Part shown: one piece after another, positions 869-25,812 of the stretch
Position numbering within the stretch: position 1 is the first letter of the stretch
How the letters are laid out: the number at the start of each line of letters is the position of its first letter
Source of the DNA: Caenimonas aquaedulcis
GTDB taxonomy: Bacteria > Pseudomonadota > Gammaproteobacteria > Burkholderiales > Burkholderiaceae_C
Length of the DNA stretch: 64,000 bases
Direction: 5' to 3'
NCBI RefSeq assembly: GCF_015831345.1
Contig: NZ_JADWYS010000001.1
Location: 1,312,118 to 1,376,117, forward strand
The notes under the pieces: model-generated
What the model was told of the DNA's origin: nothing
The model's input: only the letters and a program-made list of their open reading frames with translations
Database searches by the model: none
Position numbers and translations under genes: made by a program

Positions 869-2635
869 ATGATTCGTCTTCTGTGGGGCGTCGCCGTCGC
901 GCTGCTCGCATCGGTCTGCCACGCTCAGACGCCGGACGACGGCACGTGGACGATGGCGGCGCGCAACTTCGAGGGGCACCGCTTCAGCGGCCTGGACCAG
1001 GTGACGCCGGGCAACGTGGCGCAGCTGAAGGTCGCCTTCACCTTCGACACCGGCGTGCCCAAGGGGCAGGAGTCGATCACCCTCGTCGCGGACAACACGA
1101 TGTTCATCGTGGGCCCGTTTCCGAACGTGCTGTTCGCGCTCGACCTCACGAAGCCGGGTGCGCCGCTCAAATGGAAGTTCGACCCCAAGCCCGACGCGAG
1201 TTCGCAGGGCGTCGCCTGCTGCGATTTGGTAAACCGCGGCGCCGCCTACGCCGACGGCCGCGTCTTCTTCAACACGCTGGACAACCAGACGCTGGCGGTG
1301 GATGCGAAAACCGGGGCGGAGCTGTGGCGCGCGAAGCTGGGGGACATCAAGCTCGGCGAGAGCATGACGATGGCGCCGCTGGTGGTGAAGAACAAGGTGC
1401 TGGTGGGCAACAGCGGCGGCGAATTCGGCGTGCGCGGCTGGCTCGCGGCATTGGACGCGGCCACCGGCAAGGTGCTGTGGCGCGCGTACAGCACCGGCCC
1501 GGACAAGGACGTGCTCATCGGCCCGAACTTCAAGCCCTACTACGCCTCCGACCGCGGCGCCGACCTGGGCGTGAAGACCTGGCCGCCGGACGCATGGAAG
1601 ATCGGCGGCGGGACGGTGTGGGGCTGGCTCACCTACGACCCCGTGCTGGACCTCCTGTACTACGGCACCGCCAACCCCGGCCCCTGGAACCCGGAGCAGC
1701 GCCCCGGGGACAACAAGTGGACGTCCGGCATCTTCGCGCGCAAGCCCGACACCGGCGAAGCGGTGTGGTTCTACCAGTTCAGCCCGCACGACCTGCACGA
1801 CTACGACGGGGTCAACGAGAACGTGCTCGTCGACACGCCCATCGCGGGCGCGAACCGCAAGGTCCTGCTCCACCCGGACCGCAACGGCTACATGTATGTG
1901 ATCGACCGCGCCACCGGGCAGGTGCTGTCGGCCAACCCCTTCGTGCACGTGACGACCTCCAGCGGCGTGGACCTTTCCACCGGCGCGCTGCGCTACAACC
2001 CGCAGAAGGACCCGCGCGCCGGCGAGACCGTGCGCAGCATCTGCCCCGCATCGCCGGGCGCGAAGGACTGGCAGCCTTCGGCCTGGTCGCCGCGCACGAA
2101 GCTGCTCTACGTCCCGCACCAGAACCTCTGCCAGGACACGGTGACGGGCACGGCGAGCTACATCGCGGGCACGCCCTACGTGGGCCTCGAGCAGAAGATC
2201 TACGCGGGCCCGGGCGGCCACCGCGGCCTCTTCACCGCCTGGGACCCGGTGGCCGGCAAGAAGGCCTGGCAGGTCGAGGAGCACTTCCCGGTGTGGAGCG
2301 GTGCGCTCGCGACGGCCGGCGACCTCGTCTTCTACGGCACCATGGACGGCTGGTTCAAGGCGCTCGACGCGCGCAGCGGCAAGCTGCTCTGGCGCTTCAA
2401 GACCGACTCCGGGATCATCGGCCAGCCGATGTCCTATCGCGGCCCGGACGGCAGGCAGTACATCGCGGTGATGGCGGGCGTGGGCGGCTGGGCCGGCGCC
2501 GTGGTCTCGGGCAGCATGGACACGCGCGACGCGACGGGCGCCAGCGGCTTCGCCAATGCCATGCGCGACCTGCAGGCCGCGACGAAGGCGGGCAGCAAGC
2601 TGTACGTGTTCGCGCTGCCGGAGGGCACGCGATGA
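869..2635 (+). CDS. xoxF: PQQ-dependent alcohol dehydrogenase, lanthanide-type (XoxF-like)
   Basis: Soluble periplasmic quinoprotein alcohol dehydrogenase of 588 residues with a signal peptide (cleavage near CHA-Q at 19) and no fused cytochrome domain. It has the family hallmarks: vicinal cysteines C117-C118 in VACCDLVNRG, the GNSGGEFGVRG motif (E185), TANPGPWN (N269) and the catalytic aspartate D311 in HDLHDYDG. D313, two residues after the catalytic Asp, is the residue that in XoxF, ExaF and PedH enzymes completes the lanthanide site; calcium enzymes (MxaF) have Ala there. E185/N269/D311/D313 match the SolV XoxF ligands (Glu172, Asn256, Asp299, Asp301) in order and spacing. Substrate (methanol, ethanol or another alcohol) cannot be read from sequence. 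The gene overlaps xoxJ by 4 bp and leads a cytochrome c/oxidase operon, its likely electron outlet. Confidence 0.88.
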   Translation: MIRLLWGVAVALLASVCHAQTPDDGTWTMAARNFEGHRFSGLDQVTPGNVAQLKVAFTFDTGVPKGQESITLVADNTMFIVGPFPNVLFALDLTKPGAPLKWKFDPKPDASSQGVACCDLVNRGAAYADGRVFFNTLDNQTLAVDAKTGAELWRAKLGDIKLGESMTMAPLVVKNKVLVGNSGGEFGVRGWLAALDAATGKVLWRAYSTGPDKDVLIGPNFKPYYASDRGADLGVKTWPPDAWKIGGGTVWGWLTYDPVLDLLYYGTANPGPWNPEQRPGDNKWTSGIFARKPDTGEAVWFYQFSPHDLHDYDGVNENVLVDTPIAGANRKVLLHPDRNGYMYVIDRATGQVLSANPFVHVTTSSGVDLSTGALRYNPQKDPRAGETVRSICPASPGAKDWQPSAWSPRTKLLYVPHQNLCQDTVTGTASYIAGTPYVGLEQKIYAGPGGHRGLFTAWDPVAGKKAWQVEEHFPVWSGALATAGDLVFYGTMDGWFKALDARSGKLLWRFKTDSGIIGQPMSYRGPDGRQYIAVMAGVGGWAGAVVSGSMDTRDATGASGFANAMRDLQAATKAGSKLYVFALPEGTR

Positions 2636-3432
2636 TGCGACGGCTGCTGGCCGCCGCATGCATGGCGGCGCTCGCATCGGGGGCCGCGGCCGGGGAACTG
2701 CCGGCCACCTTGCGCGTCTGCGCCGACCCCGACAACCTGCCCTACTCCCATGCGAACGGCAGCGGCTTCGAGAACCGGATCGCGCAGCTCGTGGCCGACG
2801 ACCTGAAGCTGCCGCTGGAGTACGAGTGGCTGCCAGACCGCCGCGGCTTCGTGCGCAAGACACTGGGCGCACGGCTGTGCGACGTGATCATGGGCGTGCC
2901 CGCGGGCTTCGAACGCGCGATGACCACGCGGCCCTACTACCGCTCCAGCTACGTGGTGGTGGACCATGCGGGCGGTGCCCCCATCGCATCCTTCGACGAC
3001 CCGCGCCTCGCGCGCATGCGCCTGGGCGTCCAGCTGATCGGCAACGACCTCGCGGCCTCGCCGCCCGGCCAGGCGCTCGCGCGCCACGGGCAGACGGACA
3101 ACGTGCGCGGCTTCGCCGTGCCCGGCGAGGAGCCGGCGGCGGCGCGCATCGTGCACGCGATCGAGTCGGGCGAGCTCGACGGCGCGATCGTCTGGGGGCC
3201 GCAGGCGGGCTTCTTCGCCGCGCACTCGCGCGTGCCGCTGCGCGTCCACGCCATCGCCGCGCCGGCAGGCCCGGGAAGCCAGCCCTTCGCGTACGACATC
3301 GCGATGGGCGTGCGCCGAGGCGACCGCGAGCTGCAGGCCGCGCTCGACGGTGTGATCGAGCGCCGCCAGGCGGACATCGCGCGCATCCTCGCGGACTACG
3401 CCGTGCCGCAGGTCGCAGGGGCCGCGCGATGA
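2632..3432 (+). CDS. xoxJ: XoxJ/MoxJ-like periplasmic binding protein of quinoprotein dehydrogenases
   Basis: 266-residue secreted protein of the solute-binding fold found beside PQQ methanol dehydrogenases (MxaJ/XoxJ family). A signal peptide ends near GAAAG. The mature N-terminus LRVCADPDNLPYSHANGSGF is the diagnostic motif of the family, followed by GFENRIAQLVADDL and CDVIMGVPAGFERAMTTRPYY. In XoxJ the fold is thought to help activate or mature the dehydrogenase rather than feed an ABC transporter, and no ABC permease is present here. The ATG lies inside the xoxF stop (ATGATG), giving a 4-bp overlap. The downstream cytochrome c gene overlaps in the same way, so xoxF, xoxJ and the cytochrome are translated as a set. 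Confidence 0.85.
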   Translation: MMRRLLAAACMAALASGAAAGELPATLRVCADPDNLPYSHANGSGFENRIAQLVADDLKLPLEYEWLPDRRGFVRKTLGARLCDVIMGVPAGFERAMTTRPYYRSSYVVVDHAGGAPIASFDDPRLARMRLGVQLIGNDLAASPPGQALARHGQTDNVRGFAVPGEEPAAARIVHAIESGELDGAIVWGPQAGFFAAHSRVPLRVHAIAAPAGPGSQPFAYDIAMGVRRGDRELQAALDGVIERRQADIARILADYAVPQVAGAAR

Positions 3433-4001
3433 AACGCATCGTGCTGGCCTGCCTGCTCGTGCTGCTGGCATCGGGCTGCGAGCGCGAGGCGCGGCGCTTC
3501 ACCACGCCCGCGAACAACGAGACGGCGGCCGAATCGGCGCAGCGCCTGGGAACGCTGCAGCCCGCCGTGCCGCTTGCCGGCGGCGTCAGGCAGGCCAAGG
3601 CGAACGTGAGCCCCTACGAGGAGAACGCGTTCTCCGTGAACCAGGGCAAGCGCCTGTACCGCTGGTACAACTGCAACGGCTGCCATGGCAACGGTGGCGG
3701 CGGCATCGGCCCGGCGCTCATGGACAGCCAGTGGAAATACGGCAGCGACCCGGCCTCGATCTTCGCGACCATCACGCAGGGACGTCCGCAAGGCATGCCC
3801 TCTTTCGGCGGCCACATCCCGGACGACCAGGTGTGGCAGATCGTGGCCTACGTGCGCTCGATGAGCGGCCAGCTGCGCAAGGACGTCGCGCCCAGCCGGG
3901 GCGATTCGCTGTACCCCGGCAACCCGGAGAACGCGCGGCCGAAGGAAACGCCGCAGCCCGACAAGTCGCAGCCGTCCCGGCCGCCGGGAGCGCCCTCATG
4001 A
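3429..4001 (+). CDS. Lipoprotein mono-heme cytochrome c
   Basis: 190-residue class I cytochrome c. It has a lipoprotein signal peptide with lipobox LASGC (C17), so it is probably anchored to a membrane facing the periplasm. One heme site CNGCH lies at residues 82-86, and the sixth ligand is probably M123 in RPQGMPSFGG. The C-terminus is a low-complexity Pro/Lys/Ser tail. Its position directly between the XoxF/XoxJ pair and the cytochrome oxidase genes, with 4-bp overlaps on both sides, makes it the likely electron carrier from the dehydrogenase to the oxidase (an XoxG-like role). That role is inferred from context; the sequence itself only shows a c-type cytochrome. Confidence 0.85.
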   Translation: MKRIVLACLLVLLASGCEREARRFTTPANNETAAESAQRLGTLQPAVPLAGGVRQAKANVSPYEENAFSVNQGKRLYRWYNCNGCHGNGGGGIGPALMDSQWKYGSDPASIFATITQGRPQGMPSFGGHIPDDQVWQIVAYVRSMSGQLRKDVAPSRGDSLYPGNPENARPKETPQPDKSQPSRPPGAPS

Positions 4002-5065
4002 CGCGCATGCTGGAGCGCGCGCTCTACATCGCCGCGCTCGCGCTCGCGGTGTTGTGCGTCACCTCGCTCGCGCAGTATGCGATGGCCGCGACGCCGATCC
4101 CGCAGGCGCCGCACGATGCGCTCCACGCCATGGGCCCGCAGGCGGGCCACATCGTCGACCTCTGGCGCGTCATGCTCTGGACCTGCTCGCTGGTGTTCGG
4201 CGCCATCCTCGCGGCGCTGCTCTTCGCGATCCTTCGCGCGCCGCGCGCGGACGCCACCGCCGCGCCCGACCTGTCGGCCGTCGACCGGGCCGAGCCGCGC
4301 GTGCGGCGCAGCGTGGCGAGCGCGGCGGTCGCGTCCGCGCTGCTGCTGTTCGCGCTGGCGCTCGCGAGCGTCTTCACCGACCGCGCGCTGGCGCGCCTGT
4401 CGCTCGCCGGCGCGGTGAACATCGAAGTCACCGCCCACCAGTGGTGGTGGTCGGCGCGCTACCTGGACGGCGGCCACGCGGACACCTTCGTGACGGCCAA
4501 CGAGATCCACATCCCGGTCGGCCGCCCCGTCAACCTCCAGCTCAAGGCCGACGACGTGATCCACAGCCTGTGGGTGCCCAGCCTCGCGGGCAAGAAGGAC
4601 CTCATCCCCGGCCGCAGCGCCTCGATGCAGTTCCGCGCGGACACGCCCGGCCCCTACCGCGGCCAGTGCGCGGAATTCTGCGGATTCCAGCACGCGCTGA
4701 TGGGCCTGCTCGTGGTCGCGGACCCCCCCGCGCAATACGAGGCGTGGGTGCAGGCGCAGCGCACGCCGCCCGCGCCGCCGACCGGCGCGAAGGCGATCCG
4801 CGGGCAGCAGTTGTTCCAGTCGACGAGCTGCGCGATGTGCCATGCCATCGGCGGCACGATCGCGAGCGCCCAGCATGCGCCGGACCTCACGCATCTCGCG
4901 AGCCGCTCGACCCTTGCCGCGGGGACGCTCGCGAACACGCCGGCGCAGCTGGCCGCCTGGATCGCGGACCCGCAAAAGCACAAGCCCGGCGTGAACATGC
5001 CGTCCACGCCGATCTCCAGGGACGACCTGGATGCGCTCGTTGCCTACCTGGAGACCCTGAAATGA
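3998..5065 (+). CDS. coxB: Cytochrome c oxidase subunit II with fused cytochrome c domain (caa3-type)
   Basis: 355-residue subunit II of a heme-copper oxidase. Two N-terminal membrane helices (about 53-80 and 106-125) precede the periplasmic CuA domain. CuA ligands are complete: H189 (VIHSLWVP) and C224-x-E226-x-C228-x3-H232-x2-M235. The electron-entry tryptophans are in the QWWW motif (149-151). A C-terminal cytochrome c domain carries CAMCH (278-282), so this is a caa3-type subunit able to take electrons from a small cytochrome c or directly from a dehydrogenase. A further hydrophobic stretch at residues 7-30 may be a signal peptide. It overlaps the upstream cytochrome gene and the downstream ctaD by 4 bp each. 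Confidence 0.92.
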   Translation: MTRMLERALYIAALALAVLCVTSLAQYAMAATPIPQAPHDALHAMGPQAGHIVDLWRVMLWTCSLVFGAILAALLFAILRAPRADATAAPDLSAVDRAEPRVRRSVASAAVASALLLFALALASVFTDRALARLSLAGAVNIEVTAHQWWWSARYLDGGHADTFVTANEIHIPVGRPVNLQLKADDVIHSLWVPSLAGKKDLIPGRSASMQFRADTPGPYRGQCAEFCGFQHALMGLLVVADPPAQYEAWVQAQRTPPAPPTGAKAIRGQQLFQSTSCAMCHAIGGTIASAQHAPDLTHLASRSTLAAGTLANTPAQLAAWIADPQKHKPGVNMPSTPISRDDLDALVAYLETLK

Positions 5066-7023
5066 CGCACGCCACGCTCGAAGCGTCGATGGCGGCCGAT
5101 CGCGTCCGCATGAAGGACGGCCCGCCCGCCGGGTCGCGCGAGGCGCGCGCGCTGGACGTGACCTGGGACGACCCGCCGGGCCTGCTCGGGTGGTTCTGCG
5201 CCATCAACCACAAGACGATCGCCAAGCGATTCATCGTCACCACGCTCGGGTTTTTCGCGGCGGGCGGGCTGATCGCCGCGGTGATGCGCATGCAGCTGTC
5301 CCGGCCGGAGAACACGCTGGTCGGGCCGGACATGTACAACCAGCTCTTCACGATGCACGGCACGACGATGATGTTCCTCTTCGCCGTGCCGGTGATGCAG
5401 GCCGTGGCGATCTACCTCGTGCCGCTCATGGTGGGTTCGCGCACCGTCGCCTTCCCGCGGATGAACGCCTTCGCCTACTGGATCTTCCTGTTCGGCGGGC
5501 TGATGCTGTACGCGGCCTTCTTCGTCAACTCCGGCCCCGATGCGGGGTGGTTCGCCTACGTGCCGCTCGCGGGGCCCGACTACTCGCCGGGCAAGCGGGT
5601 CGATTTCTGGGCGCAGATGATCACCTTCACCGAGCTCTCGGGGCTCATCGAGGCGATCGTGATCATCGCCACCGTCTTCAAGATGCGCGCGCCGGGCATG
5701 ACGCTCAACCGCATGCCGCTGCTGGTGTGGTCCAACCTGGTCACCTCGTTCATGGTGCTGTTCGCGATGCCCGCCGTGATGCTCGCGAGCACGGCGCTCA
5801 TCCTCGACCGGCTGGTGGGCACGCATTTCTACAACCCGGCCGAAGGCGGCGACCCGCTGCTGTGGCAGCACCTCTTCTGGTTCTTCGGCCACCCGGAGGT
5901 GTACCTGATCTTCATTCCCGGCCTGGGCTTCCTCTCCTCGGTCATCCCGACCTTCTCGCGCCGCCCGATCTACGGCTACACCGCGATGGTGCTGTCGCTG
6001 GTGGCCACCGGCTTCCTCGCCTTCGGCCTGTGGGTGCACCACATGTTCGCCACCAACCTGCCGGAACTGGGCAAGGCCTTCTTCACCGCGATGAGCATGC
6101 TGATCGCCATCCCGAGCGCGCTGCAGATCTTCTGCTGGATCGCGACGATGTGGACGGGGCGCCTGAACCTGAAGACGCCCATGCTCTTCGTGCTGGCCTT
6201 CTTCTTCATCCTCGTCCTGGGCGGCCTCACCGGCCTCATGCTCGGGGCGGTGCCGCTGGACCTGCAGGTGCACGACACCTACTTCGTCGTCGCCCACCTG
6301 CACTACGTGCTGATCGGCGGCGCAGTGTTTCCGCTGTTCGGCGCCTTCTACTACTGGTACCCGAAGATCAAGGGCCGGATGATGGGCGAGGCGCTGGGCA
6401 AGGCCTCGTTCTGGCTGATGTTCATCGGCTTCAACGCCGCGTTCTTCCCCATGCACTGGCTCGGGCTGCACGGCATGCCGCGCCGCGTGTACACCTACCA
6501 GGCCGGCATGGGCTGGGACGGGATGAACCTGCTGTCCACCCTCGGCGCCTTCACCTTCGCCGCCGGCGTGTTCCTCTCGCTGGTGAACGCGGTCGCCAGC
6601 GCGCGGCGCGGCGCGGTCGCGGGCGCCGACCCCTGGGGCGCCGGCACGCTGGAATGGTCGATCGCGTCGCCGCCCCCGCCCTGCAACTTCCACGCGATCC
6701 CCACCGTGCACGGGCGGGACCCGCTCTGGCAGCCCGCGCCCGGGGGCGCGCCTGCGCGCGTGAGCGGGCTGGCCGTGAACGTGCGCGAAGTGCTGGTCAC
6801 CAGCGTCATCGATGCGCTGCCCGACCACCGCATGACATCGCCCAATCCGTCGCCGTGGCCCTTCCTCACCGCCTTGGCGACCACCGTGCTGTTCATCGGC
6901 TCGATCTTCACGCCCTGGGCCGTGGTGTGGGCCGCGATTCCCGCGACGATCGCCACCATCCTCTGGTTCTGGCCCAAGCACAAGGACAACTCCGAGGACC
7001 TCGCACTGGAGAAGGCGCCATGA
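5062..7023 (+). CDS. ctaD: Cytochrome c oxidase subunit I, divergent proton channels
   Basis: 653-residue catalytic subunit with about 12 core helices plus two C-terminal ones. Redox ligands are intact: heme a H99 and H414, heme a3 H412, CuB H277, H326 and H327, with the cross-linked tyrosine Y281 and E279 in FGHPEVY. The proton channels are unusual. The D-channel entrance aspartate of classical A-type oxidases (the Asp before MAFPR) is T128 here (TVAFPRMN), the second Asn of the PRxNN motif is A136, and the K-channel lysine (GIK in classical enzymes) is Q355 (PSALQIF). This suggests altered proton pumping while O2 reduction is retained. The gene sits between coxB and ctaE with 4-bp overlaps. 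Confidence 0.93.
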   Translation: MTHATLEASMAADRVRMKDGPPAGSREARALDVTWDDPPGLLGWFCAINHKTIAKRFIVTTLGFFAAGGLIAAVMRMQLSRPENTLVGPDMYNQLFTMHGTTMMFLFAVPVMQAVAIYLVPLMVGSRTVAFPRMNAFAYWIFLFGGLMLYAAFFVNSGPDAGWFAYVPLAGPDYSPGKRVDFWAQMITFTELSGLIEAIVIIATVFKMRAPGMTLNRMPLLVWSNLVTSFMVLFAMPAVMLASTALILDRLVGTHFYNPAEGGDPLLWQHLFWFFGHPEVYLIFIPGLGFLSSVIPTFSRRPIYGYTAMVLSLVATGFLAFGLWVHHMFATNLPELGKAFFTAMSMLIAIPSALQIFCWIATMWTGRLNLKTPMLFVLAFFFILVLGGLTGLMLGAVPLDLQVHDTYFVVAHLHYVLIGGAVFPLFGAFYYWYPKIKGRMMGEALGKASFWLMFIGFNAAFFPMHWLGLHGMPRRVYTYQAGMGWDGMNLLSTLGAFTFAAGVFLSLVNAVASARRGAVAGADPWGAGTLEWSIASPPPPCNFHAIPTVHGRDPLWQPAPGGAPARVSGLAVNVREVLVTSVIDALPDHRMTSPNPSPWPFLTALATTVLFIGSIFTPWAVVWAAIPATIATILWFWPKHKDNSEDLALEKAP

Positions 7024-7652
7024 CGACCGCCGCCACGCCCGCCTCCCGCAGCGACGCCACGCTGGACGTCTCGGGGCTGCCCAGCTTCCGCTTCTCGCAC
7101 CACAGCCCGATGTGGTGGGGCACGCTGGGCATGATCGCGATCGAAGGAACCGTCTTCGCGCTCGCGATCGCGAGCTACTTCTACCTGCGCATGCACTCGA
7201 ACACGTGGCCGATGTTCGCGCTGCCGCCCGATCTCTTCTGGGGCACGCTCAACACCGCCGTGATGCTGGGCAGCCTTGTTCCCAACCAGCTCGCCAAGAG
7301 CGCGAGCGAACGGCTCGACCTGCCGGCCGTGCGGCTCTGGCTGTCGGTGGCCCTCGTCTTCGCTTTCCTCTTCCTCGGCGTGCGCGTGATGGAGTTCGCC
7401 TCCCTGAACGTGCGCTGGGACAGCAACGCGTACGGCTCCATCGTCTGGACCCTGCTCGGCCTGCACACCACGCACCTCATCACCGACACGATCGACACGA
7501 CGGTGCTCGACGTCCTGTTCTTCACCGGACCGCTGGACGGGCGCCGCTTCGTGGACGTGAGCGAGAACTGCTTCTACTGGTACTTCGTCGTGGGCTCCTG
7601 GCTGCCCATCTACCTCGTCATCTACTGGGGCGCGCGCCCCTGGCCGTCATGA
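7020..7652 (+). CDS. ctaE: Cytochrome c oxidase subunit III family protein
   Basis: 210-residue membrane protein of the subunit III (CtaE/CyoC) family. About five hydrophobic segments are visible, starting after an N-terminal polar leader of about 30 residues: WWGTLGMIAIEGTVFALAIA, the AVMLGSLVP region, LWLSVALVFAFLFLGV, IVWTLLGLHTTHLITD and FVVGSWLPIYLVIYW. The GLHTTHLI and EFASLNVRWDSNAYGS segments resemble the conserved subunit III helices. It is shorter than the seven-helix mitochondrial type, as is common in bacterial caa3 clusters. It overlaps ctaD upstream and a small membrane protein gene downstream by 4 bp each, consistent with a single oxidase operon. Confidence 0.85.
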   Translation: MTTAATPASRSDATLDVSGLPSFRFSHHSPMWWGTLGMIAIEGTVFALAIASYFYLRMHSNTWPMFALPPDLFWGTLNTAVMLGSLVPNQLAKSASERLDLPAVRLWLSVALVFAFLFLGVRVMEFASLNVRWDSNAYGSIVWTLLGLHTTHLITDTIDTTVLDVLFFTGPLDGRRFVDVSENCFYWYFVVGSWLPIYLVIYWGARPWPS

Positions 7653-7990
7653 GGATCTGGCTCGGCCTCCTCGCGGCGCCAAGCGTCGCGCTCGCGTGCC
7701 AGGCGATCCTGTTCGCGCTGGCGACGCCCGCGTGCAGCAGCCAGTCGCGCGTCGAGCTGCACGCCGTCGCCGCGGCAAGCCTCGCGCTCACCCTCGCCTT
7801 CACCGTCATCGCGCGCGGCGGCTGGGCCTCGCACGGCGGGGGCATGACCCAGGCCGAGGTCGACCATGCCGACGGCGGCACGGTCCGGGCGTTCCTCGCC
7901 GCGGCCGCCACGGCGGTCGCCGCCATCTCCGCCTTCACCGTGCTCGCCATGTGGGCCGTCGTCGGAGTCCTCTCGCCGTGCGCGCAATAG
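7649..7990 (+). CDS. Small three-helix membrane protein in oxidase operon
   Basis: 113 residues, not recognised as a named family. Three hydrophobic stretches are visible: an N-terminal one (LGLLAAPSVALACQAILFAL), a second around residues 41-56 (ASLALTLAFTVI), and a third near the C-terminus (FLAAAATAVAAISAFTVLAMWAVVGVL). A short polar loop (GGGMTQAEVDHADGG) separates the last two. It lies between ctaE and ctaG, overlapping ctaE by 4 bp and ctaG by 13 bp, so it is probably an accessory or small subunit of this oxidase. That assignment rests only on context. Confidence 0.7.
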   Translation: MRIWLGLLAAPSVALACQAILFALATPACSSQSRVELHAVAAASLALTLAFTVIARGGWASHGGGMTQAEVDHADGGTVRAFLAAAATAVAAISAFTVLAMWAVVGVLSPCAQ

Positions 7991-8865
7991 CGGCCGCATG
8001 CCTGCTCGCGCCGGTGGGCGCCTGGGCGCATGCGCCGGAATCGCCCGCCGCCGGCCCCTCGTGGACGGCATGGAATACGCAGCCCTGGCTGCTGTTCCTC
8101 CTGGCCGTCTCGCTGCTCTTCTACGCCGCCGGTTTGCTTCGCCTGTGGCGCCACGCGGGCGCGGGCCATGGCATCCCCGTTCGGCAGGCCGCCTCGTTCG
8201 CGGCCGGCTGGCTCGCGCTCGTCGCCGCGCTCGTGTCGCCGCTCGACGCGATGGGCTCGCTGCTCTTTTCCGCGCACATGGTGCAGCACGAGATGCTCAT
8301 GATCGTTGCCGCGCCGCTGCTTGTGCTCGGCCGGCCGCTCGCCGCGTGGACCTGGGCGCTGCCCGCGGTGTACCGGATGCGGCTGCCGGCCCTCGTTCGC
8401 TCGCGCTCGCTCGCCTGGGCGTGGGACGCGATCACGCAGCCCGTCTCCGCCTGGGCGCTGCACGCGATCGCACTGTGGGCGTGGCACGCCCCGCAGCTGT
8501 TCGAGGCCGCCTTGCGCAGCGAAGGGCTGCACGTGCTGCAGCACGCGTCCTTCTTCGTCACGGCCCTGCTCTTCTGGTGGGCGGTGCTGGGACCCGATGC
8601 GCGGTCCCGCCGCGCGGGCCTCGCGATGGTGCTGCTGTTCACGACCATGATGCACACCGGCGCGCTGGGTGCGCTACTCGCGCTTGCACCGACTCCGTGG
8701 TATCCGCCCTACGTGGACGCCGCGGTGGCGCTGGGCATCGACCCGGTGCAGGACCAGCAGCTCGGCGGCCTCGTGATGTGGGTGCCCGGCAGCGTGGCGT
8801 ACCTCGTGGTGGGCCTGCAGGTGATCGCGAACCTCCTCGGGCGCCGCGCGAAGGCGATGGCATGA
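7978..8865 (+). CDS. ctaG: CtaG-family cytochrome c oxidase assembly membrane protein (caa3_CtaG)
   Basis: About 295-residue polytopic protein of the caa3 CtaG family, needed in Bacillus for formation of active caa3 oxidase. I start it at GTG 7978, which gives a signal-like N-terminus (AACLLAPVGAWAHAPE) and overlaps the preceding gene by 13 bp; an earlier in-frame start would run deep into that gene. Six to seven helices follow. Conserved features include HMVQHEMLMIVAAPLLVLGRP, WAWHAPQLFEAAL with HVLQHASFF, and TPWYPPY near the C-terminus, with the repeated His residues expected for copper handling. It follows coxB-ctaD-ctaE as in other caa3 clusters. Confidence 0.88.
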   Translation: MRAIAAACLLAPVGAWAHAPESPAAGPSWTAWNTQPWLLFLLAVSLLFYAAGLLRLWRHAGAGHGIPVRQAASFAAGWLALVAALVSPLDAMGSLLFSAHMVQHEMLMIVAAPLLVLGRPLAAWTWALPAVYRMRLPALVRSRSLAWAWDAITQPVSAWALHAIALWAWHAPQLFEAALRSEGLHVLQHASFFVTALLFWWAVLGPDARSRRAGLAMVLLFTTMMHTGALGALLALAPTPWYPPYVDAAVALGIDPVQDQQLGGLVMWVPGSVAYLVVGLQVIANLLGRRAKAMA

Positions 8866-9278
8866 AAACCGCTGGCGTCGGCCTCGCCCTGGCGCTCGCG
8901 CTCGCGGGCTGCCATTCGCCGAAGAAACTGGCCGGGGCCGACGATCTGCACCGCGCCGCCCGCGACACCGCGAGCATCGCCCGCGAAAGCGCGCTCCTTG
9001 TCGACCAGGTCCAGCGCGGCCATGTCGGCGCCGACTACGTATGGGTCCATCAGCAGGCCCTGCAGGAGGACGCCCGGCGCGCGGCCGAGCCTTTGCACCG
9101 CGCGGCGCCGGACGCGCTGCGCGGGCTCCAGCAGCAGGTGGAGGCCGCGAGCGCCCGCCTGTCGGCCGGGCTGGAGCACACGCCGCTGGCCACTGCGGGC
9201 CCGGACGAACTCGCGCGGCTCGCGCAGGTTTTCGCGCAGGCCGGTGCGCAGGCCGCCGCACTGCGGGGGGACAAGTGA
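8862..9278 (+). CDS. Small lipoprotein of unknown function
   Basis: 138 residues with a lipoprotein signal peptide (LALAGC, lipid-attachment C17) and a mature part that is almost entirely charged/Ala-rich and predicted helical (RAARDTASIARESALLVDQV, then QLQQQVEAASARL-like segments), possibly a helical bundle or coiled coil. No named domain recognised. It overlaps ctaG by 4 bp and the NRAMP-like transporter by 4 bp, so it is translated with them. A periplasmic, membrane-anchored accessory to the oxidase or the metal transporter is possible but unproven. Confidence 0.7.
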   Translation: MKTAGVGLALALALAGCHSPKKLAGADDLHRAARDTASIARESALLVDQVQRGHVGADYVWVHQQALQEDARRAAEPLHRAAPDALRGLQQQVEAASARLSAGLEHTPLATAGPDELARLAQVFAQAGAQAAALRGDK

Positions 9279-10507
9279 ACATCGGCGAGCTCGCGCTGGG
9301 CATCATGACCGCGCTCGGCGGCTTCGTGGACATCGGCGAGCTGGTGTTCGCGATCGAGGCGGGCGCGAAGTTCGGCTTCGCGCTGCTGTGGGTCGTCGTG
9401 CTCGGGACGGTGGGCATCGCGATCTTCGGGGAGATGTCGGGCCGCATCGCGGCCGTCCTGAAAAAGCCCGCCTTCGAGGCCGTGCGCGACCGCTTCGGTT
9501 TCGGCCCGTCGCTGGGCGTGCTGGTCGCGTCCAACCTCGTCAACATCCTCACCTGCGCTGCGGAGGTGGGCGGCCTCGCGATCATCCTGCAGCTCGTCTT
9601 CGGCGCCAACTACCGGCTCATGCTGCTCGCGGCCGCGGGCCTCCTGCTGCTCACCGTGTTCCTGCTGCCCTTCCGCTGGATCGAGCGCGTCTTCGGCCTG
9701 GCGGGCCTCACCTTGCTGGTCTACGCGGTCGCGGCGGTGAAAGCGGGGCCCGACTGGGGCGACGTGGCGCGGGGGCTCGTGCCGCAGCTGCCCGCACCCG
9801 GGATGCCGGGCCTGCCGGTCTACGCCTACTACATCGTGGGCCTGCTCAGCTCGATCCTCATGCCCTACGAGATCTACTTCTATTCCTCCGGCGGAATCGA
9901 GGACAAGTGGACGCCGAAGGACCTGCCCGTCAACAAGCTCACGGCGGGCGTCGGCTTCACGCTGGGCGGCCTGCTCACGATGGCGCTCATCGTCGTCGGC
10001 GCCGCCGTATTCCTGCCGCAGCAGGTCGATCCGCAGCGCCTCAGTTCGGTGGTGATGGGCGCATCGGTCCCGCTCGGCCACGTCGGGTTTCTCTTCGCCC
10101 TGGCCGGCATCTTCTTCGCGGTGGGCGGCGCGGCGGTGGAGACGGCGCTCTCCGCCGGCTACAACGTCGCGCAGTTCTTCGGCTTGCCCTGGGGCAAGAG
10201 CCACCAGGCGCGCGAAGTGCCGCTCTTCACCGTCTGCTGGATGGCCGCGATCGTGCTGGGAACGGCCATCGCGATGGGCGGCGCGAATCCCATCCAGGTC
10301 GTCGAATATTCGGTGATCTTCGCCGTCGTGGTGCTGCCGTTCACCTACTACCCGATCCTCAAGCTCGCGGACGACCGGGACGTCATGGGCCGGCACGTCA
10401 ACTCGCCCGTGATCCGCGTGCTGGGCTGGGCCTACTTCGCGCTCATCTGCGCGGTCGCGCTCGCGGCCATCCCGCTGCTCATCGCGACGCACATGGGTCA
10501 GGCCTGA
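9275..10507 (+). CDS. NRAMP-family divalent metal transporter, divergent metal-site motifs
   Basis: 410-residue polytopic protein (about 11 helices) of the NRAMP/SLC11 fold, beginning at a GTG that overlaps the lipoprotein stop (GTGA). In classical NRAMPs the metal sits between DPGN in helix 1 and MPHN in helix 6. Here helix 1 reads GGFVDIGELVFA (D19, E22) and helix 6 reads SSILMPYEIYFYSS (M196, E199). The Asp and the metal-selecting Met are kept, but both Asn positions are Glu and the His is Tyr. This gives a site with three carboxylates. Classical substrates are Mn2+ and Fe2+. Its place at the end of an operon headed by a lanthanide-type dehydrogenase raises other options (see findings). 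It converges with the DUF1275 gene, overlapping by 10 bp. Confidence 0.8.
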   Translation: MNIGELALGIMTALGGFVDIGELVFAIEAGAKFGFALLWVVVLGTVGIAIFGEMSGRIAAVLKKPAFEAVRDRFGFGPSLGVLVASNLVNILTCAAEVGGLAIILQLVFGANYRLMLLAAAGLLLLTVFLLPFRWIERVFGLAGLTLLVYAVAAVKAGPDWGDVARGLVPQLPAPGMPGLPVYAYYIVGLLSSILMPYEIYFYSSGGIEDKWTPKDLPVNKLTAGVGFTLGGLLTMALIVVGAAVFLPQQVDPQRLSSVVMGASVPLGHVGFLFALAGIFFAVGGAAVETALSAGYNVAQFFGLPWGKSHQAREVPLFTVCWMAAIVLGTAIAMGGANPIQVVEYSVIFAVVVLPFTYYPILKLADDRDVMGRHVNSPVIRVLGWAYFALICAVALAAIPLLIATHMGQA

Positions 10508-11241
10508 AGCTTGCGCAGGTCGGCCAGCAGCGGCATCGCGGAAATCGCCAGCAGCACGAGGACAACCGGGAGCACGGCGGCATAGCCGATGGACTTGAAC
10601 GCCAGCGCGCCGGCCACCGCGCCACCCAGGAAGAGGCCGAGGATGATGGCGAGCACGGCCAGGCGCTCGCGATCGGCGCGCACCGGCCCCGCCACGGCAT
10701 GACCGCGGTTCACATACAGCAACCTGCCCAGCTCGATGCCGAGGTCGGTGACGACACCGGTCATGTGCGTGGTGCGGATCTCCGCCCGCGAGATCTTGGT
10801 GACGATCGCGTTCTGCAAGCCCATGGTGAAGCAGAGCAGGAGCACGGTGCTCGGGACGAACAGTTCGACGAGCGTGTCGAGGTGCGCGCCCAGCACCCCG
10901 AAGGCGAGCAGCAGCAGGGCCTCGACGAACACCGGCAGCGCGAACTCGCCGTGCATGCCGCGCCGCCGGGCCCAGTTGACCAGCAGGGCCGTGGTGGCCG
11001 CGCCGGCGATGAAGGCGGCGAGAAAGGCGACGCCCGCGAGCACCAGCCCGATGCGGCCCAGCACGAGGTCGTCGGCCATGGCCGAGACGATGCCCGTCAT
11101 GTGGGAGGTGTAGCGCTGGACGGCGAGGAACCCGCCCGCGTTGATCGCGCCGGCCACGAATGCCAGCAGGCCCCCCAGTTGCCGGTTGGTGCGCTGGGTG
11201 CGCTGCCGGCCGGTGAGGTTGGCGAGGAACACATGGGGCAT
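10498..11241 (-). CDS. DUF1275 (YoaK family) membrane protein
   Basis: 247-residue membrane protein with about six helices. The N-terminus (LGGLLAFVAGAINAGGFLAV, then RYTSHMTGIVS) and the later GLQNAIVTKIS...RTTHMTGVVTDLGIELG are the two diagnostic halves of DUF1275/YoaK proteins, whose transport substrate is unknown. I chose ATG 11241 (MPHVFLANLTG) as start; the frame stays open upstream but without family similarity. It is convergent with, and overlaps by 10 bp, the NRAMP-like gene, and is divergent from the GH2 gene. I see no link to either operon. Confidence 0.85.
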   Translation of the reverse strand: MPHVFLANLTGRQRTQRTNRQLGGLLAFVAGAINAGGFLAVQRYTSHMTGIVSAMADDLVLGRIGLVLAGVAFLAAFIAGAATTALLVNWARRRGMHGEFALPVFVEALLLLAFGVLGAHLDTLVELFVPSTVLLLCFTMGLQNAIVTKISRAEIRTTHMTGVVTDLGIELGRLLYVNRGHAVAGPVRADRERLAVLAIILGLFLGGAVAGALAFKSIGYAAVLPVVLVLLAISAMPLLADLRKLQA

Positions 11242-11261
11242 GGAAGGCTTATTGTGCTCCC

Positions 11262-11281
11262 CCTGCGGCGCGCGCCGCAGG
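11262..11281. repeat. Perfect 20-bp palindrome between divergent genes
   Basis: The sequence from 11262 to 11281 (left half CCTGCGGCGC) is its own exact reverse complement. It lies 20 bp upstream of the DUF1275 start and 31 bp upstream of the GH2 start, the only intergenic space between these divergent genes. It could be a dimeric regulator operator or a stem-loop. It is pure GC/CG-rich apart from one A/T pair, so chance in this high-GC genome is not negligible. Confidence 0.5.
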
Positions 11282-11312
11282 ACAGGACCACGGCCTACAC
11301 GTCCACCCGGCC

Positions 11313-13175
11313 ATGCTGCATACGATGGTCCGAGCACCCACTCCACATCCCGGAACCAATTTGCAAATCCCCCCCGAGCAGCGCGACGCGTCCGCTGCGC
11401 ACGCCTACCCCCGGCCGCAACTGGAGCGCGAACACTGGCAGTCGCTCAATGGTTCGTGGCGCTTCCATTTCGACGACGCGTGCGAATTCACGTCTGCCGC
11501 AGAGCCGCACGAGTGGCCGTTGGACATCACCGTGCCGTTCCCGCCCGAATCGGCGGCCAGCGGCATCGGCGACACCGGATTCCATCCTCGATGCTGGTAC
11601 CAGCGCGACTTCGAGCTGATGCCGGCGGACGACCGCGTGATCCTGCGCTTCGGCGCGGTGGACTATGCGGCGCACGTGTGGGTCAACGGGCATCTCGTCG
11701 CCGCCCACGAAGGCGGGCACACGCCGTTCTGGGCGGACATCACGGACGTGCTCGACCCCTCGGGCCGGCAGACCGTCACCGTGCGCGCCGATGACGACCC
11801 GCACGAGCTGAACAAGCCGCGCGGCAAGCAGGACTGGCAGCTGGAGCCGCACCTCATCTGGTATCCGCGCACGAGCGGCATCTGGCAGACCGTCTGGATA
11901 GAGCGCGTCGGGCACACCTACATCGACAAGATCCGCTGGACGCCGAAGCTCGAGGGCTTCGCCATCGGGCTGGAAGCGCGCCTGCGCGGCGACTTGGGCG
12001 GCGACCTGTCGCTGGAGCTCGAACTGCGGCACGGGGAGCGCCTGCTCGCGCGCGACCGCTACCAGGTGGTCGACGGCGAAGTCGACCGCTCCATCGCGCT
12101 GTCCGACCCCGGCATCGACGACTTCCGCAACGAGCTCCTGTGGAGCCCGGAGCGTCCGACGCTGCTGGACGTGGAGCTGAAGCTGCTGCGCGACGGGAAG
12201 GTGGTGGACCGGGCGAAGTCGTACACCGCGCTGCGCTCGGCCGCGGTGCTGCGCGACCGCTTCATGCTCAACGGGCGCCCCTACGTGCTGCGCATGGTGC
12301 TCGACCAGGGCTACTGGCCCGACACCCTACTCGCCGCGCCGAGCGACGAGGCGCTCAGGCGCGACGTCGAGCTGGCCAAGGCGATGGGCTTCAACGGCGT
12401 GCGCAAGCACCAGAAGATCGAAGACCCCCGCTACCTCTACTGGGCCGACAAACTGGGGCTCATGGTGTGGGAGGAAATGCCCTCCGCCTATCGCTTCACG
12501 CGCACCGCGATCAAGCGCACCGTGCGCGAGTGGACCGAGGCGATCGACCGCGACTACAGCCACCCCTGCATCATCGTGTGGGTTCCCTTCAACGAGTCCT
12601 GGGGCGTGCCCGAGCTGCCCGTCGTGCAGGCGCACCGCCACGCCGTCGAGGCGCTCTACCACCTCACCAAGACGCTCGACCAGACCCGCGCGGTGATCGG
12701 CAACGACGGGTGGGAATCGTCCGCCACCGACATCATCGGCATTCACGATTACGACTCGAACCTGGAGCACATCCGCGAGCGCTACGGCGCGGGCGTGGAC
12801 CCCGAGAAGCTCTTCGACCGCCGCCGCCCGGGGGGGCGGGTGCTGACGCTGGACGGCCATCCGCACCGCGGCCAGCCGATCATCCTCACCGAATTCGGCG
12901 GCATCGCCTTCCAGAAGGAGCCGCAGCCCGGCGACGCGAAGATCTGGGGCTACACCCAGGTGACCGACGACGAAACCTTCGCCCAGCTCTACGAGCAGCT
13001 GCTGCGGGCCATCATCGACACCGCTCTCTTCAGCGGCTTTTGCTACACGCAGTTCGCCGACACCTTCCAGGAGGCCAACGGCCTGCTCTATGCCGACCGC
13101 ACGCCCAAGATCCCCCTGCAGCGGATCAAGGCCGCCACGTCGCGCTCGCGCAACTGGATTCCCGGCGGCGTGTGA
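11313..13175 (+). CDS. Glycoside hydrolase family 2 protein (beta-galactosidase/glucuronidase-like)
   Basis: 620-residue cytoplasmic (no signal peptide) GH2 enzyme with the jelly-roll sugar-binding domain (about 25-190, [10 protein letters not shown] and [20 protein letters not shown]), an immunoglobulin-like domain (about 190-300) and the TIM barrel. Catalytic residues are visible: acid/base E428 in VPFNESWGV and nucleophile E527 in [11 protein letters not shown]2 enzymes cleave beta-galactosides, glucuronides or mannosides; the linked galT and galK favour galactose release. The start at 11313 is uncertain: M5 is also possible and no clear ribosome binding site is visible. The stop overlaps the galT start (TGATG), so the three genes form one operon. 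Confidence 0.88.
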
Positions 13176-25436: not shown

Positions 25437-25812
25437 TGGTGGAGCTGGCGGGAATTGAACCCGCGTCCGCAAGCCTTCTTCGTACAGTTCTACATGCGTA
25501 GCCGTCTGGTTTGGATCTCGCTTCCTGTGCCGCGCAGCGGCACGCTGCACAGGACGCCAGTCACCTATTGTCTCGTTCCCCGCCAAGTGACCCGGCGGGA
25601 AACCAGCCTATGAAGGTTTCTTTGCAGCTCGGCCCCCCGAAGGGAACCTCACCCAGCCCATAGGCCTGCTGTTGCAAAGCTCACCGGCAATTAAGCGGCG
25701 AGTGCGAACGTAGAGTCGTTTGCAGTTACTTTTTTGAATCAGTTTTACGAGCACATTCAGCTCGGCATGCCCTGCCACGCGTCCGAACCCACGTCGAAAC
25801 CAGTGCAGCCCC
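25437..25812 (-). ncRNA. ssrA: Transfer-messenger RNA (tmRNA)
   Basis: 376-nt tmRNA, which rescues ribosomes stalled on broken mRNAs. The 5' end GGGGCUG (from 25812) pairs with CAGCUCC before the 3' terminal ACCA (ending 25437) to form the alanine-tRNA-like acceptor arm, with the G-U pair expected for alanylation. The T-arm GGGUUCAAUUCCC is near the 3' end and the D-like 5' region reads CUGGUUUCGACGUGGG. The tag reading frame is at 25723-25691. Sequence outside this core contains the expected pseudoknot stems. It follows gph on the same strand. Confidence 0.95.
25691..25723 (-). other. tmRNA proteolysis-tag reading frame
   Basis: On the minus strand the resume codon GCA (25723) opens the frame Ala-Asn-Asp-Ser-Thr-Phe-Ala-Leu-Ala-Ala-stop (TAA, 25693-25691). 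The charged alanine precedes it. The C-terminal ALAA is the signal read by ClpXP/ClpAP proteases. The GUAACUGCA context just upstream agrees with the usual resume-site determinant. Confidence 0.92.

Follow-up and report, generated by a model that had tools for sequence, protein, structure and literature searches.

Which metal is carried by an NRAMP-fold transporter whose gene closes an operon headed by a lanthanide-type methanol dehydrogenase? We addressed this question in a 64,000-nucleotide stretch of the Caenimonas aquaedulcis genome (hereafter, the window), to which all positions refer. The first gene of the operon (869-2635, + strand) encodes a XoxF-type (lanthanide-type) PQQ methanol dehydrogenase (TIGR03075, 633 bits). 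Its three closest solved sequences (PDB 4mae, 6oc5, and 6dam) are lanthanide-type XoxF enzymes (4mae is one that we take to be lanthanide-type), and the XoxF metal ligands are present as D311-Y-D313, E185, and N269. The claim of an earlier, sequence-only reading that a lanthanide-type enzyme heads this operon was therefore borne out. The D-x-D motif by itself is not specific to XoxF, as it also occurred in three of five remote PQQ enzymes inspected.

Downstream on the same strand are genes for a XoxJ-type periplasmic binding protein (2635-3432; TIGR03871, 278 bits, cut-off 212), a c-type cytochrome that is XoxG-like by position (3432-4001; PF13442, 63.6 bits), and three cytochrome c oxidase subunits: subunit II with a cytochrome c domain (3998-5065; PF00116 and PF00034), subunit I (5062-7023; TIGR02891, 700 bits, over the cut-off), and subunit III (7020-7652; PF00510, 32.4 bits, cut-off 23.8). 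A small membrane protein of 113 amino acids with no Pfam or NCBIfam match (7649-7990) lies between coxIII and ctaG, and has homologues at the same place in two other loci (L003 and L004). It is followed by CtaG, a caa3-type oxidase assembly factor whose start is uncertain (8062-8865; PF09678, 213 bits), and by a small lipoprotein of 138 amino acids with an LAGC lipobox (8862-9278), for which no Pfam family scored over its cut-off. The end of the lipoprotein gene shares 4 bases with the beginning of the transporter gene; the coupled lipoprotein gene reported in the sequence-only reading is real. The operon is flanked by a cytochrome b561 gene (190-813, - strand), divergent from xoxF, and a DUF1275 membrane protein gene (10498-11346, - strand), convergent with the transporter gene, the last 10 bases of which it overlaps. 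A small membrane gene is also divergent from xoxF in L003 and L004. A search against PHROGs gave no match.

Voutsinos et al. 2024 (PMC10875860) described XoxF3 clusters of Acidobacteria and Gemmatimonadetes that contain, as in the window, XoxF, XoxJ, XoxG, CoxI-III, CtaG, small proteins, and an NRAMP. Because the available part of that article already places NRAMP genes inside XoxF3-CoxI-III-CtaG clusters and proposes lanthanide transport, neither the co-localization nor the lanthanide idea is new here. The protein at 7649-7990 is perhaps one of the small proteins intervening between CoxIII and CtaG mentioned there. In that same part of the text, supplements and figures aside, we found no residue-level analysis of the metal site, no analysis of partner families, and no test of genomes devoid of XoxF.

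The transporter ORF (9275-10507, + strand) starts with GTG and encodes 410 amino acids with the site DIGE...S-x-x-MPYE. It was assigned to the SLC11/NRAMP superfamily by its match to PF01566 (174.2 bits, gathering cut-off 29.8) and by a predicted model with the LeuT-type fold, in which TM1 and TM6 are broken. Both MntH models scored below their cut-offs (TIGR01197, 38.6 versus 272.5; NF001923, 102.7 versus 430), and the DPGN and MPH motifs of canonical MntH are replaced by DIGE and MPYE. This NRAMP-fold assignment, with DIGE/MPYE for DPGN/MPHN, had been made from the sequence and is upheld by the family score and by conservation in 121 sequences.

In comparison with the canonical MntH DraNramp, the transporter has in common the fold, the site position, and the equivalents of D56 and M230. 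In the alignment, the TM1 stretch GGFVDIGELVF places D19 (codon 9329-9331) at the D56 position, at the TM1 break, and E22 (9338-9340) at the N59 position, which puts E22 at a known ligand position. The TM6 stretch SSILMPYEIYFYSSGGIE contains S193, M196 (9860-9862; M230 position, at the TM6 break), and E199 (9869-9871; V233 position, in TM6b), which sits one turn below M196. A further acid absent from the earlier list, E344 (10304-10306), lies in TM10 three residues before the Q378 position, which is occupied by V347, and was found in all 121 near homologues. Relative to DraNramp, N59 is thus replaced by E22, V233 by E199, Q378 by V347, and both TM6b histidines by tyrosine, and the TM9 arginine pair is absent. 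The canonical set of proton-path residues is likewise not retained: H232, H237, D131, R352, and R353 read as Y198, Y203, C94, V320, and C321, and only E134 is kept, as E97. Of the three carboxylates proposed earlier, E199 falls at a position (V233) that does not serve as a ligand in the DraNramp structures described in the parts of the literature available. The transporter belongs to a little-studied NRAMP branch and has extra acidic residues at its predicted metal site.

Among the query and the best 120 of 4,076 homologues found, all with at least 61% identity, D19 was kept in 120 of 120 (one row was gapped), E22 in 116 of 120, M196 in 121 of 121, and E199 in 117 of 121. The four remaining residues at both glutamate positions were glutamine, and Gln22 and Gln199 occurred in the same four sequences of one clade (P0030, P0032, P0037, and P0046). 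Such near-complete conservation argues that the DIGE/MPYE signature is not due to chance. We then searched genome contigs with 28 diverse homologues, which gave 140 relatives, of which 80 were kept. According to the record labels, the hosts include Burkholderiales, Novimethylophilus, Sphingomonas, Mesorhizobium, Acidobacteria, Gemmatimonadetes, Actinobacteria, and Chloroflexi, as well as a cyanobacterium, a planctomycete, a deltaproteobacterium, and others; the relatives span at least seven phyla by these labels, which can be wrong for MAGs, and many come from soil MAGs. The site is DIGE/MPYE near the window, D[LF]GQ/M[EVA]YE in Acidobacteria gp1 and L008, D[IV]SE/FPYE in Sphingomonas (once DISQ), DIG[DE]/[TSAVIM]PYE in most Actinomycetota (DTGG/TPYQ in two rows), EIGE/LPYE in gp4, and EVGS/SPYL, with variants, in a distant Mesorhizobium group. 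Positions 19, 97, and 289 were acidic in all 64 family rows of the tree described below. In Acidobacteria gp1, Gln22 is accompanied by Asn (once Asp) instead of E344; L047 combines Gln22 with Gly344. We rejected covariation of E22 with E199 or with E344 as proof of a shared site, because at most three independent pairs change acidity together and a sign test was not significant. In a Chloroflexi MAG contig (L079:8610-9784), the transporter is split into two ORFs by a frameshift or an assembly error.

These residues bear on a first alternative, namely that the protein is an importer of Mn2+ or Fe2+ with an altered site, recruited to C1-oxidizing soil bacteria for general metal supply. The invariance of M196 in the 121 near sequences fits such a role, as do a score over the cut-off with the NCBIfam divalent-metal model Nramp_1 (NF037982, 58.9 versus 50) and the observation that the one other Nramp of the window genome is not of the MPHN type. 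However, other subclades have Phe, Thr, Ala, Val, Leu, Ser, or Ile in place of Met. In addition, a preprint (PMC13060092, in the part available) reports that Mn2+ import by DraNramp survives replacement of N59 by other polar residues or by Gly but not by Glu, and that many changes of Q378 harm this import, whereas the transporter has E22 and V347 at these positions. It is also too rare in relatives (1 of 349 genomes of the order) for a housekeeping manganese importer. We therefore regard import of Mn2+ or Fe2+ as unlikely, while keeping it in view. Even if the protein is no lanthanide importer, its clade is an SLC11 branch in which one site residue is incompatible with Mn2+ import when placed in DraNramp.

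To place the family, we built a quick tree of 79 rows, comprising 64 family members (48 from loci and 16 database proteins) and 15 outgroup sequences. The 64 family rows formed one clade relative to the outgroup (SH-aLRT 100, stem 1.27), separate from MntH, and this clade joined NRMT-like rows with a support of 82 on long branches. The closest PDB sequence is the Mg2+ transporter EleNRMT (PDB 7qia; PMC8806188), at 172.7 bits versus 122.6 for DraNramp, and in searches with the predicted model EleNRMT also ranked first by fold, tied with DraNramp. By sequence, the family thus appears to be a distinct NRAMP clade with EleNRMT as its nearest PDB entry, a placement that is new here.

This proximity suggests a second alternative, a transporter of Mg2+ or another hard divalent ion of the NRMT type, and the loss of the proton-path residues, which EleNRMT likewise lacks (PMC8806188), points the same way. 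Nevertheless, the DxxG-TxxA/T site that defines NRMTs (PMC8806188) is replaced: EleNRMT has DxxG-TxxA, whereas the window transporter has DxxE-SxxM together with E199 and E344; the 64-row family forms a clade of its own, which joins NRMT-like rows at 82% support across long branches. An M-box riboswitch or an MgtE-N-like partner is a feature of NRMTs, though not of every one (PMC4072509); neither the window nor any of 30 family loci contained a riboswitch scoring above the Rfam gathering threshold, and no MgtE-type domain was present in the window neighbor genes scanned. Taken together, we consider transport of Mg2+ rather improbable.

Two further NRAMPs with unusual cargo provide comparisons. 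The site of the aluminum transporter SiNRAT (PDB 8ont), as described in the available part of PMC10115441, is likewise remodeled with an extra acid, which together with hard ligands is thought to hold trivalent Al3+. The extra Asp of SiNRAT lies in TM3 at the DraNramp T130 position, where the window transporter has T93, and SiNRAT belongs to a plant clade with a DxxN-AxxT site in contrast to DxxE-SxxM; the combination of DxxN-AxxT and a TM3 acid that marks NRATs is thus absent here. NREET1 of the fern Dicranopteris linearis is an NRAMP reported as a rare-earth uptake protein (Zheng et al. 2023, as cited in the part available of PMC11982783), and this plant protein can be likened to the window transporter by description alone. 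An assay of any member of this clade was not found in the literature searched.

The genes adjacent to the transporter are also recurrent. A profile built from 18 coupled upstream ORFs found a same-strand match immediately before the transporter in 56 of 81 loci; leaving out the loci that had contributed to the profile and the window itself, 38 remain. This upstream partner is short and has a lipobox-like sequence in 40 of the 56 cases; in the alignment, conserved polar residues are few and a metal motif is not evident. A second profile, built from 29 downstream ORFs, gave a match just behind the transporter in 54 of 81 loci, of which 25 had not contributed to the profile. These matches correspond to a PRC-barrel-type protein of about 110-125 amino acids found in several phyla (e.g., L024:11221-11565, L044:11206-11559, and L068:11203-11565). 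Homologues carry PRC-barrel as their database name, and among six of the small proteins compared with the Pfam PRC family, one scored over the cut-off, four scored below it, and one had no match. The profile had no match in the window locus, in L003-L008, or in the gp1-labeled loci. The PRC-barrel partner may be a cytosolic regulator; a search of the literature gave no report of a PRC-barrel protein together with an NRAMP. The association of the transporter with a lipoprotein upstream and a PRC-barrel protein downstream is new here.

We further investigated whether the transporter occurs together with XoxF, using samples each drawn around a carrier genome as centre, with kinship inside families uncorrected and with the two families named by us after the record titles of L045 and L029. 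Of 150 genomes from the Terriglobus albidus family (centre G026; XoxF counted at E up to 1e-150), 9 had the transporter, 21 had XoxF, and 7 had both. XoxF3-like enzymes were thus present in 7 of 9 carriers versus 14 of 141 non-carriers (Fisher p = 1.2e-5; 6.6e-5 without the centre, and 0.033 without the six previously known carriers), and 14 of the 21 XoxF genomes had no transporter. FdhF/YdeP, equally prevalent (9 of 150) and taken as a control, overlapped XoxF in 2 genomes (p = 0.37) and the transporter in none. In the family of Sphingomonas changbaiensis (149 genomes around G034), numbers were thin: 2 genomes carried the transporter, 4 carried XoxF, and 2 carried both, so that XoxF3-like enzymes occurred in 2 of 2 carriers versus 2 of 147 non-carriers (p = 5.4e-4; 0.020 without the centre). 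In the order of the window genome, XoxF was found in 31 of 349 genomes (4 at 60% identity or more, including that of the window) and the transporter in one, which also had XoxF; since this sole carrier is the window genome, nothing independent is gained from the order sample. Compared with those 4 of 349 genomes at 60% or more, XoxF is present at 73-78% identity in every one of L003-L006, the closest named carriers apart from the window genome. The association of the transporter with XoxF3 within the Terriglobus family and, on thin numbers, the Sphingomonas family is new here.

A third alternative is that the transporter is an accessory gene of soil oligotrophs, its association with XoxF3 reflecting shared habitat, relatedness, or co-transfer rather than function. 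The spread over at least seven labeled phyla, the many soil MAGs, and the many carriers without XoxF agree with this. On the other hand, the association holds inside one family of adequate numbers, albeit with kinship uncorrected, and the control gene of equal prevalence shows no such association. Moreover, transporter and XoxF were on different contigs in 5 of 7 Terriglobus and 2 of 2 Sphingomonas co-carriers, although these are drafts and distance is not proven by them. Mere hitch-hiking therefore seems to us improbable.

The association does not hold for every carrier. Of 80 genome loci, many of them shortened by contig ends, 8 also encode XoxF of at least 58% identity, and the gene order varies among these. 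In 50 of the genomes behind these loci, many of them incomplete MAGs, XoxF of at least 52% identity was searched for and found in 25 (one a 77-residue fragment). It was found in none of 14 Actinomycetota carriers, two of which have a remote PQQ enzyme, one with D-x-D, in none of three carriers labeled Chloroflexi (L009), cyanobacterial (L063), and Saccharibacteria, and in 25 of the remaining 33. Of 42 dehydrogenases listed, the 37 with at least 52% identity all contain D-x-D together with the Glu and Asn ligands. Members acidic at positions 19, 22, and 199 came with XoxF in 11 of 30 genomes, versus 14 of 20 for members without this signature; the difference (two-sided p = 0.04, kinship uncorrected) is in the wrong direction. 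The expectation that the acid signature accompanies XoxF thus failed, as 19 of 30 signature genomes had no XoxF of at least 52% identity, and we rejected the three-carboxylate signature as a mark of XoxF hosts. XoxF is predicted not by the signature but by membership of the family at large, and this solely outside Actinomycetota. The sequence-only reading had named frequent homologues away from xoxF as evidence against itself, and this is partly what the survey found. Its rare-earth proposal gains from the co-occurrence in the Terriglobus family and, weakly, in the Sphingomonas family, and loses from the 14 Actinomycetota carriers without XoxF.

Two loci (L019:11882-19545 and L065:1568-8747, both - strand) have an XoxF3-type cytochrome c-coxII-I-III-ctaG cluster beside the transporter and a formate-dehydrogenase-like FdhF/YdeP molybdopterin oxidoreductase (TIGR01701) where XoxF stands in L024; neither genome has an XoxF match at E up to 1e-20, and the layout of L082 is similar (locus only). 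These loci would suit a transporter that supplies metal to the dedicated aa3-type oxidase/CtaG module for oxidase assembly rather than to XoxF, a role we consider very unlikely, since no Actinomycetota locus, several on short contigs, has a nearby match to oxidase genes and we know of no SLC11 copper importer.

The explanation that we prefer, if tentatively, is an SLC11-fold metal importer that works with the lipoprotein and serves the XoxF3 module, Ln3+ being its most likely cargo there. As the cargo in XoxF3 hosts, Ln3+ is our leading guess, held in the knowledge that such a guess would fail more often than succeed. The protein would act as an inner-membrane secondary importer of a separate clade, paired with a dedicated extracytoplasmic lipoprotein, and in XoxF3 bacteria it would serve the lanthanide-dependent methanol-oxidation module by moving Ln3+ from the periplasm to the cytoplasm. 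The ion may be bound between the TM1 and TM6 breaks by D19, E22, M196, and backbone carbonyls, and E199 and E344 may add negative charge compensating for the third charge of the ion. From the lost proton path we infer that import is probably not proton-coupled by the classical route. The fold (as a predicted model), the conserved residues, the partner genes, and the co-occurrence with XoxF are observations; the direction of transport, its coupling, the geometry of the site, and the substrate are inferred from them. The fuller proposal of an SLC11-type lanthanide importer, in which a lipoprotein-NRAMP pair supplies XoxF3 methanol oxidizers through a charge-rich, trivalent-tuned site (D19, E22, E199, and E344), is more doubtful.

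We count in favor of the Ln3+ reading the co-occurrence with XoxF, the four close carriers L003-L006, the effect of Glu at DraNramp N59, the extra acid of SiNRAT, the lost proton path, and the host of L007 (site DMGN/TPYE), Novimethylophilus kurashikiensis La2-4, which the available part of PMC7104280 counts among lanthanide-dependent strains. Against it we count the failure of the signature to track XoxF, the carriers without XoxF, L019 and L065, and two XoxF-linked members (L062 and L081) in which E22, E199, and E344 are all absent. M196, kept in the clade of the window, is moreover a soft ligand. Because the periplasm is where XoxF works (PMC10875860, in the part available), cytoplasmic import of lanthanides is not obviously needed. 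Since relatives live in genomes in which no XoxF was found, the ancestral cargo of the family was probably another metal.

Finally, we asked how the transporter relates to known lanthanide import. According to the available part of the 2024 article (PMC10875860), lanthanide transport had been verified by experiment for two systems, one a TonB receptor and the other an ABC importer. The sequence-only reading that no other lanthanide transporter is present was supported for one type: no PedC/LutF-type permease scored over the model cut-off in the window genome, in a search confined to that permease. Among 46 XoxF genomes, none of known Lut function, this permease was over the cut-off in 3 and absent at that level from 43. 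All three also carry the transporter, so there was no anti-correlation between the two and the transporter does not seem to be a plain substitute for the PedC/LutF permease. If the preferred lanthanide reading is true, an NRAMP-fold importer would explain the passage of lanthanides through the inner membrane in XoxF3 bacteria and would offer a structure-ready model for trivalent selectivity.

A genome search found only two Nramps in the window genome. The second (L001; G000:C1:718025-719122) has the site DPSG/SPYLFFWQAS, groups with L153, L154, and L156, and is neither an MntH nor a member of the window family. The window also contains a tmRNA gene at 25437-25812 on the - strand.
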